DNA of 64,000 bases from Spartobacteria bacterium LR76 (GTDB taxonomy: Bacteria; Verrucomicrobiota; Verrucomicrobiia; Chthoniobacterales; Terrimicrobiaceae). Shown piece after piece: positions 16,902 through 22,590 of the stretch. Both the position numbers and the translations under genes were made by a program. Within the stretch, counting starts at the first letter, position 1. The number at the start of each line of letters is the position of its first letter. A model generated the notes under the pieces. That model had not been told where the DNA came from and made no database searches. It saw nothing but the letters and a program-made list of their open reading frames with translations. The stretch is from NCBI GenBank assembly GCA_003054655.1, contig QAYZ01000016.1, forward strand, positions 992,001 to 1,056,000, written 5' to 3'.

Positions 16902-17378
16902 ATGAGCAAGCCCGTGGAACAGATAGTTGTTCGTGCGATCATTCCGACGAGTGCTGGCGTCGCTGTCTTCGTCGGTAATATCGAGAAAGTCTTCGTCATC
17001 TATGTCGACCCCAGCGTCGGCAGCGCGATCAACATGTTCCTCAACGGCACCGCCAAGGAGCGCCCCCTCACCCACGATCTCATGGCGCTCATCCTCGCCT
17101 CGCTGGGCGCGAAGGTGGACCGCGTCGTCATCAATGATCTCAAGAGCGGCACCTACTTCGGGCGGCTCATTCTCACGGCGGAAAACGAACTCCAGCAGCG
17201 CAAGATCATCGAACTCGACGCCCGCCCCAGCGATTGTATTGCCCTCGCCTGCCAGCAAAAAGCTCCCATTTATGTGAGCAAGGAAGTCTGGGACGAGGTC
17301 GAGGACATGTCCGACGTCCTGATCTCCATGCAGCAGCAACAGCAGGAGCAATCCGGCGAGGAAGACGAGGAAGGCTAA
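16902..17378 (+). CDS. Bifunctional nuclease (BFN/DUF151) domain protein
   Basis: A 158-residue protein of the BFN-domain family, known for members with RNase and DNase activity. The domain spans residues 8 to about 130, with family stretches AINMFLNGTAKERPLTHDLM, RVVINDLKSGTYFGRL and ELDARPSDCIALA. The C-terminus is a Gln- and Glu-rich tail (QQQQQEQSGEEDEE), probably disordered. It follows the gamma-carbonic anhydrase gene by nine bases. Nuclease activity for this member is inference. Confidence 0.88.
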   Translation: MSKPVEQIVVRAIIPTSAGVAVFVGNIEKVFVIYVDPSVGSAINMFLNGTAKERPLTHDLMALILASLGAKVDRVVINDLKSGTYFGRLILTAENELQQRKIIELDARPSDCIALACQQKAPIYVSKEVWDEVEDMSDVLISMQQQQQEQSGEEDEEG

Positions 17379-17457
17379 AGCCGATCAAGAAATCAGCAGC
17401 CCGCCCCGGACACACCGGCCGGATGCAAAAAGCGCGCATGGAATTCCGCCCGTGTCC

Positions 17458-17488
17458 CAATATCAACATCAAATGGCTGACCCCATTT
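17458..17488 (+). repeat. RAYT-associated repeat, copy 1
   Basis: Contains the core AAATGGCTGACCCC preceded by a TATCAACATC arm. It is the most diverged of four related copies in 17.4-20.0 kb, and it forms an inverted pair with copy 2 around the 17524 gene. Confidence 0.7.
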
Positions 17489-17523
17489 CACGGTGCTGCA
17501 TCATCTCCATATAGTACAAGTTC

Positions 17524-18135
17524 ATGTCCATGAAACGAGTCGTGTTTGTTTTTTGGGTGATGTTTGTGGTCTGCATCGATGTTGATGCTTTTGATGCTGG
17601 TGACATCTGGTCTCGCTCCCCTGATGGGGGATTTGTTATTTTGAGAAATAACGAAGATCCTGTGTTTTGGGATTTGAAATCGAATTCTTCGGTTGGCTCT
17701 ATCTTGAGAAAATCCGAGAAAGGGGAAATCTCCAATCTACAGGTTGTAGCGTCGTGGTCTCCCGATGGAAGGAAGGTGGCTGTATTATTATATTATGGCA
17801 CTCGCTTGAGTGATCTTCGTATTTTTCAGAAAAACAAAGATGGGCGGTTTCGGGAGCTGAAAATATCGCTGCCTAATCAGGTTGAATATAAGGCTGGTGA
17901 AGGAGCTCCTGGTTTTGATGAGAATGCGGTGGGGCCATGGACTGATAATCGGACGGTTGCCCTTCTTTTGGGGAACTGTAAGGAATTTGAATCAGGTTCT
18001 CAGCATTTTTTTGTTGCGTTTACATTCACCGTAGATGGTGGCGCAGGAGTGGTTGAGGTCAAAAAACGAATGGGGCCGCTCGATGATCGTGCGTCTAGCG
18101 AATTTCTAAACGCATGGGGCAATATCTATTGGTAG
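17524..18135 (+). CDS. Putative exported protein of unknown function, AT-rich
   Basis: I do not recognise this 203-residue protein. It begins with a likely signal peptide (MKRVVFVFWVMFVVCIDVDA; ATG at 17524 or 17530). Two segments, WSRSPDGGFVILRN and ASWSPDGRKVAVLLYYG, look like single blades of a WD40/TolB-type beta-propeller, but there are too few for a full propeller. The gene is visibly richer in A and T than its neighbours, which suggests recent acquisition. Inverted copies of the RAYT repeat lie about 35 bases on either side of it, so it may have moved with, or been captured by, that element. Confidence 0.65.
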   Translation: MSMKRVVFVFWVMFVVCIDVDAFDAGDIWSRSPDGGFVILRNNEDPVFWDLKSNSSVGSILRKSEKGEISNLQVVASWSPDGRKVAVLLYYGTRLSDLRIFQKNKDGRFRELKISLPNQVEYKAGEGAPGFDENAVGPWTDNRTVALLLGNCKEFESGSQHFFVAFTFTVDGGAGVVEVKKRMGPLDDRASSEFLNAWGNIYW

Positions 18136-18166
18136 ATATGGTGGATTTATCGAGAAAATGAGAAAA

Positions 18167-18194
18167 TGGGTCAGCCATTTAATATTGATATTTC
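18167..18194 (-). repeat. RAYT-associated repeat, copy 2
   Basis: Reads GGGTCAGCCATTT then AATATTGATATT on the plus strand, the inverse of copies 1 and 3. It lies 42 bases after the transposase stop, so with copy 3 it bounds the transposase gene. Confidence 0.8.
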
Positions 18195-18235
18195 AAGGAT
18201 CTGTTTCCGCGCTTTCACCATCCTCCGATCCTCCC

Positions 18236-19219
18236 TCATTTTTGTCTCGCCTCCTTTGCCAGTCGGCAGACCCCGGCTCTCGTTCCCATTCTCAATTCCT
18301 CGCTGATCCAATCCAGCCTCACCGTTGTTTCGTCCTGAATCATTGCCGCCAGCAGACCCTTTCTCCAGTCTCCCTTCGCTTGTGCGCGCAATTCCTCCTT
18401 CGACACCTGGAACACCTTCAGCCCGGCTTCGATCAGCCTCGCCGCTCTTCTGGCTCCATGGTCGTTGAGTTGCTCGCCGTGGTAGCCATTCGCCTTTTTG
18501 ATCTTCCGGCCTCCCTTCTCCAGCAAACTCAGCAGCTTTTCCCGAAATTCCTGCGATCCGAATAACCACCCTCTTCTCAGCGAGGAATACACTGCCAGCT
18601 CCGGCTTATCCTTTCCTTCCGAGAAAGTCGCCCCTGCTTTCCCCGGTTCGCTCCAGTCCACCCGTTTCTCCAAGACCTCCAGGAACTCCCTCCTCCCTGA
18701 CGCCGTATCGGCACACCCGCACACCTCCAGGCCCGTCGCTGTCTCCAGCCATTCCGGTCGTTTCGCCGGGCTCGCGAGATAACCCCGTAGACTGCTCCAG
18801 GCGTAACTCTCCAATCCCTCCTCTTCCTGGACCAGCCCCGCTCTTACCGGATTGAGATGCACGTAATCCAGCAACGCCCAAAAGCAATTCCCCGGCTCCA
18901 CGGCGATCGCCTTGTACCGCCCGCCAAAGACGTGGCCCCAAAGCCGATGTCTCACATTCACCCTGCGCGTGTACGCGTTTTGCAGCCATCCCATCCCCTC
19001 CGACAGGTTCGCCTTCGGCGTCTCAACCAGCAAATGGTAGTGATTGCTCATCAACGCATACGCGTGAATCCGCATCCCCGTCTTTTTCGCCGCTTCTCCC
19101 AGCGTCCGGATGAACGTCTTTCGATCCTCATCATCCCTCACAATTGCCTCCCTGCGATCTCCCCTCGCCATCACATGGTACATCGCCCCCTCGTACTCCA
19201 CCCGCACTTGCCTCGCCAT
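18236..19219 (-). CDS. REP-associated tyrosine transposase (RAYT, Y1/HUH family)
   Basis: A 327-residue single-strand DNA transposase of the Y1 family. The N-terminus (MARQVRVEYEGAMYHVMARG) is typical. The metal-binding HUH motif is H60-Y61-H62 in ALMSNHYHLLVE, and the conserved DYVHLNPVRAGLV follows near residue 127. The C-terminal 200 residues form an extension seen in larger RAYT proteins, ending RLAKEARQK. Inverted repeat copies lie 28 bases upstream and 42 bases downstream. The frame is intact, so the element could be active. RAYTs act on nearby palindromic repeats of the REP type; the repeats seen here are the likely partners. Confidence 0.9.
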   Translation of the reverse strand: MARQVRVEYEGAMYHVMARGDRREAIVRDDEDRKTFIRTLGEAAKKTGMRIHAYALMSNHYHLLVETPKANLSEGMGWLQNAYTRRVNVRHRLWGHVFGGRYKAIAVEPGNCFWALLDYVHLNPVRAGLVQEEEGLESYAWSSLRGYLASPAKRPEWLETATGLEVCGCADTASGRREFLEVLEKRVDWSEPGKAGATFSEGKDKPELAVYSSLRRGWLFGSQEFREKLLSLLEKGGRKIKKANGYHGEQLNDHGARRAARLIEAGLKVFQVSKEELRAQAKGDWRKGLLAAMIQDETTVRLDWISEELRMGTRAGVCRLAKEARQK

Positions 19220-19246
19220 GCATTCTTTCTTCCTACCGCCTTAAGG

Positions 19247-19277
19247 AAATATCAATATTAAATGACTGACCCCGTTT
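19247..19277 (+). repeat. RAYT-associated repeat, copy 3
   Basis: Contains AATATCAATATTAAATG followed by ACTGACCCCGTTTT, one base different from the core of the other copies. It lies just upstream of the transposase start and forms an inverted pair with copy 4. It also supplies the stop codon of the small minus-strand gene at 19258. Confidence 0.8.
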
Positions 19278-19554
19278 TATTTCTATCGCGCGCTGGCGTT
19301 GGGTTTGTTCGGTTTTTCGTCTGTCGGTAGCATATGAGCAGGTCTTTCCGTGAGGTAGCTTCTTTCTTTAGATGCTCGCGCCAAGAAGCTTGGCTCCCTT
19401 CATGCCCCCAATAGTTGGCATCCGCCTTCTTATGGTTGGGCCGCGCGTTCACTTCACTCTCTGCGGCAACAGTGCGGGGGCGAAAATCGCTGCCCCCCGT
19501 TGCCGGGCTGTTCAGAAAAAACAGCATCAGCAGCGCGAAAAACAGACTCATCAT
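19258..19554 (-). CDS. Small putative exported protein, end truncated by a repeat
   Basis: A 98-residue frame with an N-terminal hydrophobic stretch (MMSLFFALLMLFFLNSPATG) that looks like a signal peptide, followed by a hydrophilic, basic tail. No family is recognised. The last residues and the stop codon are encoded by repeat copy 3, which suggests that insertion of the RAYT unit cut the original 3' end. It starts four bases after the stop of the 19559 gene, so the two look like a pair. Confidence 0.45.
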   Translation of the reverse strand: MMSLFFALLMLFFLNSPATGGSDFRPRTVAAESEVNARPNHKKADANYWGHEGSQASWREHLKKEATSRKDLLICYRQTKNRTNPTPARDRNKTGSVI

Positions 19555-19558
19555 GAAA

Positions 19559-19828
19559 TTAGTCCAATGTAGCCCTCCACTTTTTCGTCAGTTCGTAAAC
19601 TCTATCCCATAGTTCTTCTTCTTTGGACGTAAAGTTTGCATACTGAATCAGCGATCCTGACCATTGAAGCTGATCCAAGAGATCCAATAATTTTCCCTTA
19701 TTTCCGCCGCATTCAGAGTCAACACTCGATTCTGCCGTGAAAAAAAAGTCAGCCGTTTTTCCTTTTCCATTTCTCAGCAGTTCGTCTGCGAGATTGTGAA
19801 TTGCCTCAATAAGTTGCTGTTTCATCAT
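19559..19828 (-). CDS. Small acidic protein of unknown function
   Basis: An 89-residue soluble, probably helical protein beginning MMKQQLIEAIHNLADELL and ending TKKWRATLD. I do not recognise the family. It is AT-richer than the surrounding genes. The close spacing to the exported 98-residue protein and the position next to a transposase would fit an immunity or antitoxin-like role, but nothing in the sequence proves this. Confidence 0.5.
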   Translation of the reverse strand: MMKQQLIEAIHNLADELLRNGKGKTADFFFTAESSVDSECGGNKGKLLDLLDQLQWSGSLIQYANFTSKEEELWDRVYELTKKWRATLD

Positions 19829-19954
19829 CGGAATGCCTTGTCAGTTCGAATGACCCACGAGCGCGGCACGTTTTGAATTACGCCTTGATATGCTCCTCCA
19901 GGATAACCGGCCCCTTGAGCAGCGGCGGTTCCCTCACTTACCCAAGCGGAAAAA

Positions 19955-19984
19955 CGGGGTCAGCCATTTAATATTGATATTTCA
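19955..19984 (-). repeat. RAYT-associated repeat, copy 4
   Basis: Reads GGGGTCAGCCATTT then AATATTGATATTTC on the plus strand. It is followed directly by the transposase remnant, at the same distance as copy 2 is from the intact transposase. Confidence 0.8.
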
Positions 19985-20035
19985 AGAACCTGTTTCCGCG
20001 CTTTCGCCATCTTCCGATCTTCCCTCATTTTTGTC

Positions 20036-20095
20036 TCGCCTCCTTCGCCAGGCGGCAGATTCCGGCTCTCGTTTCCATTCTCAATTCCTCGCTAA
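20036..20095 (-). pseudogene. C-terminal stub of a second RAYT transposase
   Basis: In frame on the minus strand this encodes SEELRMETRAGICRLAKEAR-QK and a TGA, nearly identical to the last 22 residues of the transposase at 18236 (two substitutions). DNA similarity to 18167-18303 covers about 19953-20095 and stops abruptly at the stop codon of the vWA gene. The rest of this second copy has been deleted. Confidence 0.85.
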
Positions 20096-22590
20096 TTTCC
20101 TCGCCAGCGCGTTAGCCCCGCGTCCGTGAGAAAGGCGATGGCGAGCAACAGCAGGAGCCAGTTGCCCAAGGGAGCATAACCCGCCGCCGGAGGACAGGTC
20201 CATGCCTGGCGCAGGTCGCTGATCACCCTTCCGCCGCTGGACGTGCTGAGGGCTCGCAATTCCTCCAGCCTGTCAGGTGAGGCATCCCATTCCGGATCGA
20301 CGGACGGCGCGACGGGACCGAACCCCCAGCGAGCCTCGCCCGCGCGCACCACGCCCCGCAGGGGCTTCCCGGGCGGAAGGGACACTTTTGCTTCGAGCCG
20401 CCGTGGCTCCACGCGCTCCCAGGAGACGACGCGCGGTTCTCGTGAGGAATCATCGGAAACGATGAGCACGGGCGGGGTATTTGCCAGGCGCTCTGTCCAG
20501 GTGTCGTCGGTGAGAAGCTCCACCATCACCTCATTGCCCACGGTTTTCACCCGCAGGCTCGTTCCCTGCGGAGCAGGCGGCGGCAGGAGCCAGCGGCCAA
20601 GGGTTTGCACAAAGTCGGGAGCGGATGACCACGCGCGGAAATCCTGGGAGTAATCGCCCGCCATGGGAAACGTCACCGCCGCCACCCGCCCGATGCCGCG
20701 CTGCCAGAAGGCCACGAGCGGAGCCCGGTATTCATCGCCCGAGAGCAGCGCCGCCGACGCGCCGGGGCGCAGGTAGCTGAGATTGTATCCATCGACCTGC
20801 GGCAGCCAGTCCATGCGCCGGGGCGAGATCTCCGACCACCCGCCCGCGCTCACAGTGGCCACGGGCTCCTTGAGAAAGGCGGATCGGGCAATAGCCACGG
20901 TTTCCTGGGCGAACAGGCCGGGGAGTTGTGCGGGGTCGGCATTAAAGAAGATGCGCCCTTTGCCCAAAGCCGCGACATCGATGAGGAAATTCGCATCGGA
21001 ATCCGACCGCTCGCCGAGCCCGATCACGCTCACCGTCACACCCTGCGCCGCCATTTCACCGATGAGCTTTTGATAATCCCCGGGCTCCTCGGCATCGGCC
21101 GCGTCGGCAAAAAGGATGACGTGCCGCTGCCCGGCGGTGGAGGTTTTCAGGGCCTCCCACGCCGCCTTCAGGCCCGTGTAGACATAGATGCCGCCACCCG
21201 CGCTGCGAATGCTCCGCACGGCGTCGGTCATCTTCGCCTTGTCGCGCCCGATGGCGGAAAAGGGCACCACCTCGTGCGCCTCGCTGTCGACGGCATAGAC
21301 CGCCACGGCATCCATCGAGCCGAGCAGTTCAATGGCGCGAGCCGCTCCTTCATCCGCCAGATCCATCTTGGTGGCACCTCCTCCGGCGGAAACGGCCATG
21401 CTTCCCGACCGGTCGAGCACGATGGCCATCGCCACAGCGAGCTTGCGGTGTTCCTCCCGCAATTCCATGGAGACCGGGAGCAGCGGATCGATCTGGGATT
21501 CGAAATAGCCTCCCGCGCCGAAACTCTGGGGACCACCCGACATGAGCAGGCCCCCGCCCTGCTCTTTGACAAAGAAGGGCAGCCCATCGAGAAATGCCGC
21601 CGGGAGACGGCTGGCGGGCATGTTGTTCAGGATCACCAGCCGCGAACCCGAAAGATCCCCCGCATGCAGGCGGGACGGATCAGTCACGACATCGACGGGC
21701 ACTCCGCCACGCCTTAATGCCCCCTCCACCGGATCATCCGGATAAGGCGTCACCAGCAGTGCGCCTGGACTCGAGACGGTTTCCACCCAGGCGGACCCGG
21801 TATTGTTGGCGACCCGGGAATCCTGGCGGGGCATCAGCCGCACGTCGTACCGATGGGCGCCGGAGCCCTCTGCACGGAAGGCGACCCGGCCATGGCCGCG
21901 ACCGCGCCGAATGGCGACCTCGCCTGCTCCGATCCGCGATCCGTCGCGGAGCAATTCAAAGGGTATGCTCTGATCCTCCGAGGAGAAGGCATCGAACTCC
22001 AGGAGGACGCCCTGCCCCGGCTGCACCTGGGGCGGAACCGAGACCCTGGTCATACCGGAGTCCCCTGCGCCGCCCGGATTTTCCAGGCGGAGATCGAGGG
22101 GCGTCTTCGCTTCGGCCAGCAGGCCGCCAGCTCCCACGAGCGACTCCGTCGAGGCCCCGTCTGTGACCACGAGCATCCGGGTTGCCCGGGCCGGATCGCG
22201 CAAGCCCAGGGCATACTCCAGCGCCAGGCGCATGCGCGTCTCGCCGCGAGGTGATTCAAAAGGCCGCCCGGCCGCACGCTCCAGCGGCGCGGCAGCAAAA
22301 TCCACGATACGCAGCCTGTCCTCCGCCCCGCGATTGGCCTCCAGCAGCCGCTCGATTTCCTCGCGATGCGGTTCCACCCATTCCGCCGCCGAGGCCGAGC
22401 GATCCATCAGCACAATGAGGTCCATGCCGGGCGGCGTGAGATTCCACTCGGGCCGAGCCAGATACAGGACGAGAAGCACCAGACCCGCCACGCGGAGCGG
22501 ACGCCGGAGATCCGCACGGGGCAGCATCCACGCCAGCAAGGCCACGCAAGGCAGCAGAAGCAGCCAATACGGAGCAGCCAGTCGAATCAT
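20092..22590 (-). CDS. Membrane protein with two vWA-like regions and a GATase1-like domain
   Basis: An 832-residue inner-membrane protein, last gene of the FIST/ABC operon. Two membrane segments open it (residues 8-50). A first vWA-like region begins LIVLMDRSASAAEWV, with a DxSxS metal site. A glutamine-amidotransferase-like segment follows (VILNNMPASRLP to LLMSGGPQSFGAGGYF). A second vWA domain has the MIDAS motif AIVLDRSGSMAVS near residue 395. A C-terminal membrane helix (LGNWLLLLLAIAFLTDAG) ends it. Such proteins often bind metal or protein partners in the periplasm. Its TAG stop lies exactly where the transposase remnant begins, so the native end may have been altered. Confidence 0.85.
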   Translation of the reverse strand: MIRLAAPYWLLLLPCVALLAWMLPRADLRRPLRVAGLVLLVLYLARPEWNLTPPGMDLIVLMDRSASAAEWVEPHREEIERLLEANRGAEDRLRIVDFAAAPLERAAGRPFESPRGETRMRLALEYALGLRDPARATRMLVVTDGASTESLVGAGGLLAEAKTPLDLRLENPGGAGDSGMTRVSVPPQVQPGQGVLLEFDAFSSEDQSIPFELLRDGSRIGAGEVAIRRGRGHGRVAFRAEGSGAHRYDVRLMPRQDSRVANNTGSAWVETVSSPGALLVTPYPDDPVEGALRRGGVPVDVVTDPSRLHAGDLSGSRLVILNNMPASRLPAAFLDGLPFFVKEQGGGLLMSGGPQSFGAGGYFESQIDPLLPVSMELREEHRKLAVAMAIVLDRSGSMAVSAGGGATKMDLADEGAARAIELLGSMDAVAVYAVDSEAHEVVPFSAIGRDKAKMTDAVRSIRSAGGGIYVYTGLKAAWEALKTSTAGQRHVILFADAADAEEPGDYQKLIGEMAAQGVTVSVIGLGERSDSDANFLIDVAALGKGRIFFNADPAQLPGLFAQETVAIARSAFLKEPVATVSAGGWSEISPRRMDWLPQVDGYNLSYLRPGASAALLSGDEYRAPLVAFWQRGIGRVAAVTFPMAGDYSQDFRAWSSAPDFVQTLGRWLLPPPAPQGTSLRVKTVGNEVMVELLTDDTWTERLANTPPVLIVSDDSSREPRVVSWERVEPRRLEAKVSLPPGKPLRGVVRAGEARWGFGPVAPSVDPEWDASPDRLEELRALSTSSGGRVISDLRQAWTCPPAAGYAPLGNWLLLLLAIAFLTDAGLTRWRGN

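Follow-up and report, generated by a model that had tools for sequence, protein, structure and literature searches.

The window, the whole 64,000-nt stretch of DNA that was analysed, lies on contig C11 of a genome whose 16 contigs total 4.75 Mb. It contains an island of four repeats of ~32 bp in alternating orientation (- + - + on the + strand when each is read from GGGGTCAG), located between a gene with a bifunctional nuclease domain (16902-17378) and a gene with a von Willebrand A domain. The alternation, claimed in a preliminary description of this DNA, was confirmed by a core search and by pairing, and the repeat starts given there fell at or just beside the repeats. The core AAATGGCTGACCCC was exact in copies 1 (17471-17484, +) and 4 (19956-19969, -) and carried one mismatch in copies 2 (18167-18180, -) and 3 (19260-19273, +). 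When at most one mismatch was allowed, it was found at seven places in the 4.75-Mb genome, these four included, and a reversed control pattern was found at one. Paired with each other, the four copies reached 30-33 nt at 87-97% complementarity. The tag GGGGTCAG was present in copies 1, 3, and 4, and copy 2 read GGGTCAG, one G short of GGGG. Predicted hairpins were weak or absent (z from -3.2 to +1.2 for the four copies) and not stable for all of them.

The repeats are the terminal inverted repeats (TIRs) of a transposase unit. TIR 1 (17459-17489, -) is of the upstream-end type, with GGGGTCAG reading leftwards, and is solitary, with no recognised transposase sequence alongside. An AT-rich ORF encoding a 203-aa protein (17524-18135, +) separates it from TIR 2 (18163-18194, +), which sequence and pairing identified as the downstream end of the unit and whose outer edge is abutted by an 8-bp tandem duplication (GAGAAAAT x2, 18152-18167). 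The intact Y1/HuH transposase gene described earlier indeed lies between TIRs 2 and 3 (18236-19219, -); its product is of the TIRYT type, with 327 aa and NHYH and YVHLNP motifs, as assigned from Pfam, motifs, and a structural model. TIR 3 (19246-19278, -), delimited by pairing, is the upstream end of the unit and places GGGGTCAG ~54 bp before the ATG. Beyond it are a 98-aa ORF (19258-19554, -), the last codons of which lie inside TIR 3, an 89-aa ORF (19559-19828, -), and TIR 4 (19951-19983, +), of the downstream-end type by pairing and core. Upstream of the 89-aa ORF, a stretch of 41 codons is open up to a stop (19829-19948, -); it had no family match and, judging from its sequence, looks like what might be the tail of a larger truncated protein.

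Directly beside TIR 4, ~115 bp remain from the 3' end of another transposase gene of this type (19984-20096, -), comprising its last ~24 codons and 3' flank. They belong to a 148-bp direct repeat (18160-18307 and 19949-20096, 91% identical), and the remnant lies at the same distance from its repeat as the corresponding part of the intact gene, as had been proposed. Its end at 20096 falls within the last codons of the downstream von Willebrand A domain gene, the similarity of which to the sister versions restarts, by eye, right at 20096. Copies 2 and 3 are the only two arranged as a proper unit, their tags lying outermost and their inner repeat halves pointing toward the gene; these ends, which the preliminary description had already taken for unit ends, are 91% complementary. 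Because copy 2 lacks one G of the tag, the unit may be crippled. The island as a whole thus combines a single intact unit with ends from at least one further copy, within AT-rich, foreign-looking accessory DNA that only this lineage has among the genomes compared.

The transposase and its class

The transposase matched Pfam Y1_Tnp (E 1.9e-12) and reached 66.5 bits with the NCBIfam REP-associated transposase model NF047646, under the curated cut-off of 80. Relatives were encoded in 58 of the 97 genomes searched (own genome counted). Other matches in its own genome were fragments, except for the intact, more distant L002 (46% identity). HLNP followed the tyrosine in 26 of 26 aligned proteins, and NH[YF]H was present in 25. 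The AlphaFold model (pLDDT 86) best matched the RAYT-REP complex 4er8 (E 1.3e-6), followed by the ISDra2 and IS608 transposases; a profile of the 26 relatives matched no chain among PDB sequences. The C-terminal part was helical in the model and had no Pfam match, helix-turn-helix families included.

Two related groups were ruled out. RAYTs with REPs or REPINs (Nunvar 2010, PMC2817692; Bertels and Rainey 2011, PMC3116915) have a related fold (4er8) and, like the element, place inverted repeats on both sides of the gene; alternating clusters of repeats, nested insertions, and tandem reiteration that takes in the flanks are further shared traits. A REP-type RAYT was nevertheless rejected: the unit has GGGGTCAG ends with no GT[AG]G tag, its hairpins are weak or absent, its copies are few per genome, and the NF047646 score is under the cut-off. 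IS200/IS605 elements share the Y1/HuH core fold but were ruled out by motif and ends, as they have a Y---Q motif where the window has YVHLNP (Y---NP) and subterminal hairpins where the window has inverted ends. They also differ in protein length (core-only, ~150 aa in subclass 1.1, against 327 aa here with a long C-terminal extension), and no tnpB was noticed in the island. The related enzymes are known to recognise hairpins as a step of their mechanism.

The element is of the TIRtron/TIRYT type, probably of subclass 2.1. Di Nocera, De Gregorio, and Rocco (2013, PMC3733652) described long TIRs with the consensus GGGGWSAS, in place of REPs, around Y1 transposases, partly at similar distances, and TIRs that also occur singly or in clusters; GGGGTCAG fits this consensus. 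The portions of that text considered here include neither the present TIR sequence nor TIR-framed AT-rich genes or duplications at host/TIR junctions. According to the corresponding part of Quentin et al. (2018, PMC6006769), 20 of the 26 TIRYTs of the 2013 study belong to TnpA-Y1 subclass 2.1, with which the window's transposase shares NH[YF]H and Y[IV]HLNP motifs, a long C-terminal extension, TIRs, and the absence of REPs. It is longer than the subclass median (327 versus 238 aa), and its C-terminal part, helical in the model, had no Pfam match to the helix-turn-helix-like domain that the subclass carries there. The suggestion that the repeat is a less-described recognition sequence stood in that it is not of the REP type, but such repeats were already published in 2013 (PMC3733652). 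Literature searches, judged largely by titles, returned no published description of GGGGTCAG ends with a transposase. The locus is a further example of a known, barely studied kind; judging from the few mentions in the literature, TIRtrons have received little attention since their naming. The element is mostly ordinary and does not overturn existing knowledge.

Related units, remnants, and sister genomes

We compared the ends of 37 full-length related units, a count that omits partial or broken genes (L013, L014, L033, L035, L036, L180) and any unit that had entered it before with a different locus id. An inverted upstream/downstream pair scoring at least 17 was found in 32 of them, compared with two in the direct-orientation control, and GGGTC[A/G] was present in the upstream end of 34. 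The inner ~20 nt of the TIR varied between subfamilies, often with TTGAC. Upstream pairs mostly started 51-68 bp before the ATG and downstream pairs mostly lay 22-127 bp past the last matched codon, with outliers in both cases. L012 and L024 each had just a single clear end. The same layout was seen in looser relatives of other phyla, such as Pelotomaculum (L089) and Mariprofundus (L088).

Clear GGGGTCAG ends were missing from L002 (1414-2484, G000:C16), L027 (G001), and L029 (G002), which constitute a second TIRYT subfamily of this genus. L002 and L027 had just 1071 bp in common (the gene, ~51 bp upstream, and ~87 bp downstream) and differed in their flanks; L002 and L029 had flanks in common. 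From these alignments, the unit apparently occupies different places. In L170 (7897-10870, G081:C5), two TIRtron units of different subfamilies were 0.87 kb apart, and an end of one subfamily lay just outside the gene of the other.

With up to three mismatches, the 25-nt TIR was found at six places in its own genome: four in the island, one on another transposase 3' remnant (C16:59555), and a solitary one (C16:37021). The link between repeat and transposase, which genome-wide occurrence of unlinked repeats could have refuted, thus largely held. This TIR subfamily was detected in 14 of the 213 genomes of the order, with no control matches, and had no matches in viral contigs. Examples of internally deleted miniatures are L100, L110, and L116, as well as one of 205 bp in G008. 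The 5' remnant of another TIRYT in G001 contained a TIR that belongs to the window's subfamily. Breaks recurred near codon 45 in 5' remnants, but we claim no hot spot, since a number of the fragments concerned are at contig ends.

In the two closest sister genomes, which are of the same genus (G001, G002), and in one other of the family (G006), the bifunctional nuclease domain gene adjoins the von Willebrand gene. The gap between the matches to the two flanking genes was 24 bp in G001, 170 bp in G002, and 97 bp in G006, versus ~2.7 kb here. The border proposed earlier (18167-19277) was too narrow, since these genomes lack the whole of 17379-20091. This lineage thus has the transposase and the two AT-rich segments in addition, and among the genomes compared the simplest reading is that it gained the block.

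Framed genes, junction duplications, and origin of the island

The repeats do bracket AT-rich genes, as noted before: the G+C content of the two bracketed segments was 0.441 and 0.492, versus a window mean of 0.61. The ORFs of both segments matched no recognised family in Pfam, NCBIfam, and defence-model searches. The 203-aa protein has an N-terminus that by eye resembles a signal peptide, matches of at most 33% identity in two other genomes of the order and three others of the phylum sample, and a predicted fold of unusable quality (pLDDT 35). For the 89-aa protein, searches of 213 genomes of the order and 387 of the phylum yielded nothing but the protein itself, and neither protein had a match on plasmids. 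Core-to-core spacing was 696 bp both between copies 1 and 2 and between copies 3 and 4 (segments 17484-18168 and 19273-19957). The segments were rejected as diverged copies of one another: ungapped identity was ~25% in either orientation, local alignment scores were within the shuffled range, and the best six-frame protein score was 42. The equal spacing of unrelated segments, spotted after the fact and with no mechanism found, may be chance.

The bracketing behind the earlier proposal that the element may carry or capture cargo is real, but the genes lie outside the unit 18163-19278, between units, with the GGGTC sides facing them. They are most likely passive neighbours, and cargo carriage by this transposase would be possible only via a composite of several units. 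Such a composite, in which adjacent TIRtron units or solitary ends move the gene between them in the style of a compound transposon and the island is a worn-down unit-cargo-unit-cargo-unit array, appears unlikely to us. A further TIR lay near the full-length unit in nine of 20 long regions around transposases, in the same direction in three (L181, L185, L186) and facing inward, with GGGTC sides toward the intervening gene, in six (L167, L170, L172, L174, L175, L184); this arrangement occurs twice in the window. It also occurs twice in the sister G002, where an island of the same - + - + order has a 126-bp middle unit without a transposase gene and outer pairs that enclose a 301-aa gene and a TIR-domain gene with a SpbK-like model match. 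Inward-facing ends, however, arise trivially from two neighbouring units, and the spot of the G002 island varies in content among the compared genomes, so that its border is unreadable. G+C was at or below the 5th percentile of the respective locus in six of 10 inward-facing segments (two in the window and two in G002 included, the 84-bp segment of L172 left out), against three of 13 outer flanks of clusters and two of 17 flanks of lone units, which suggests accessory DNA. In the genomes searched, where relatives of the cargo are too rare to be informative, no cargo gene was found with its ends at a second place. Defence genes showed no clear enrichment between TIRs (model matches for four of 19 inter-TIR ORFs versus one of 10 control ORFs), and three of those four were in same-direction, not inward-facing, segments. 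In G001, two same-direction TIRs surround a HigB-type pair matching PD-Lambda-2 models.

We regard it as very unlikely that the island is a relic cluster, with a dead or domesticated transposase and leftover ends that recombination has spread within a horizontally acquired block. The missing G in copy 2, the fragmentary state of the other matches to this transposase in the genome apart from L002, and the presence of just six TIRs of this type there would fit such decay. The ORF is nonetheless intact with its HuH and Tyr motifs, the unit ends have kept their complementarity, and many relatives have an intact transposase of this type. With considerable confidence, we interpret 18163-19278 as a TIRtron, a predicted self-contained mobile unit with one Y1/HuH transposase gene between inverted GGGGTCAG-tagged ends. 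The basis for this reading is the unit itself, its conserved ends, the solitary or truncated ends, the internally deleted miniatures, and the block missing in sister genomes. Counting against it are the relatives with no clear tagged end or just one, the shortened tag of copy 2, the hairpins that are not stably predicted for all TIRs, and the lack of a PDB match by sequence. If the enzyme works as those of IS200/IS605 elements and RAYTs do, its YVHLNP tyrosine would nick single-stranded DNA at the tagged ends, and the unit, or sometimes just an end, would move as single strands.

The TIR edges of related units carried duplications of 8-24 bp at the host/TIR junction. Tandem repeats with a period of 8-30 spanned the edge in 15 of 60 ends, compared with two of 326 segments drawn at random from these loci. 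By eye, one or two of the 15 (e.g., L183) seemed questionable, and the units include some that are related to each other. A second same-direction GGGTC[A/G] was found within 45 bp outside the TIR in 15 of 64 ends and inside it in none of 64, an asymmetry that is expected because the duplications span the edge. The repeated unit usually combined adjoining host DNA with the beginning of the TIR, and its inner break varied in position; examples are 23 bp in L169 and L008 and 14 bp in L176. The 8-bp duplication at the downstream end of the window's unit contains no TIR bases. REPs or REPINs that are reiterated in tandem together with DNA from their flanks have been reported (PMC3733652, PMC3116915), and the parts of these two papers considered here do not describe a duplication confined to the TIR edge, which is possibly a new feature.

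These microduplications suggest that the ends are nicked and refilled repeatedly, and both enzyme-driven nicking and plain replication slippage are possible origins. We tentatively propose, as a doubtful idea, that they are a scar of TIRYT activity, left by a nick at or inside the tag, refilling, and religation without excision, and that the same activity would scatter solitary TIRs, framing accessory genes that might later be mobile as blocks. The edge duplications could reveal how the transposase cuts DNA, and such a scar allows a direct test of where transposases of a little-tested class cleave. The locus also offers a clear unit, sisters without the block, and an end tag that is conserved while the inner part varies.

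Two further loci had features of their own. In L003 (~1638-1880, G000:C16:186868 region) and L108, a sequence with the ends GAATGGC[A/G][C/T]TAAG...AAGG was found at or inside TIRs (CCATTCGGGTCAG), looking as if an unrelated insertion sequence might target them. In L004 (1501-1620, G000:C11:964200), a transposase 3' remnant was accompanied by a foldback of ~18 bp (ATGGGAACGCGAGCCGG / CCGGCTCGCGTTCCCAT).
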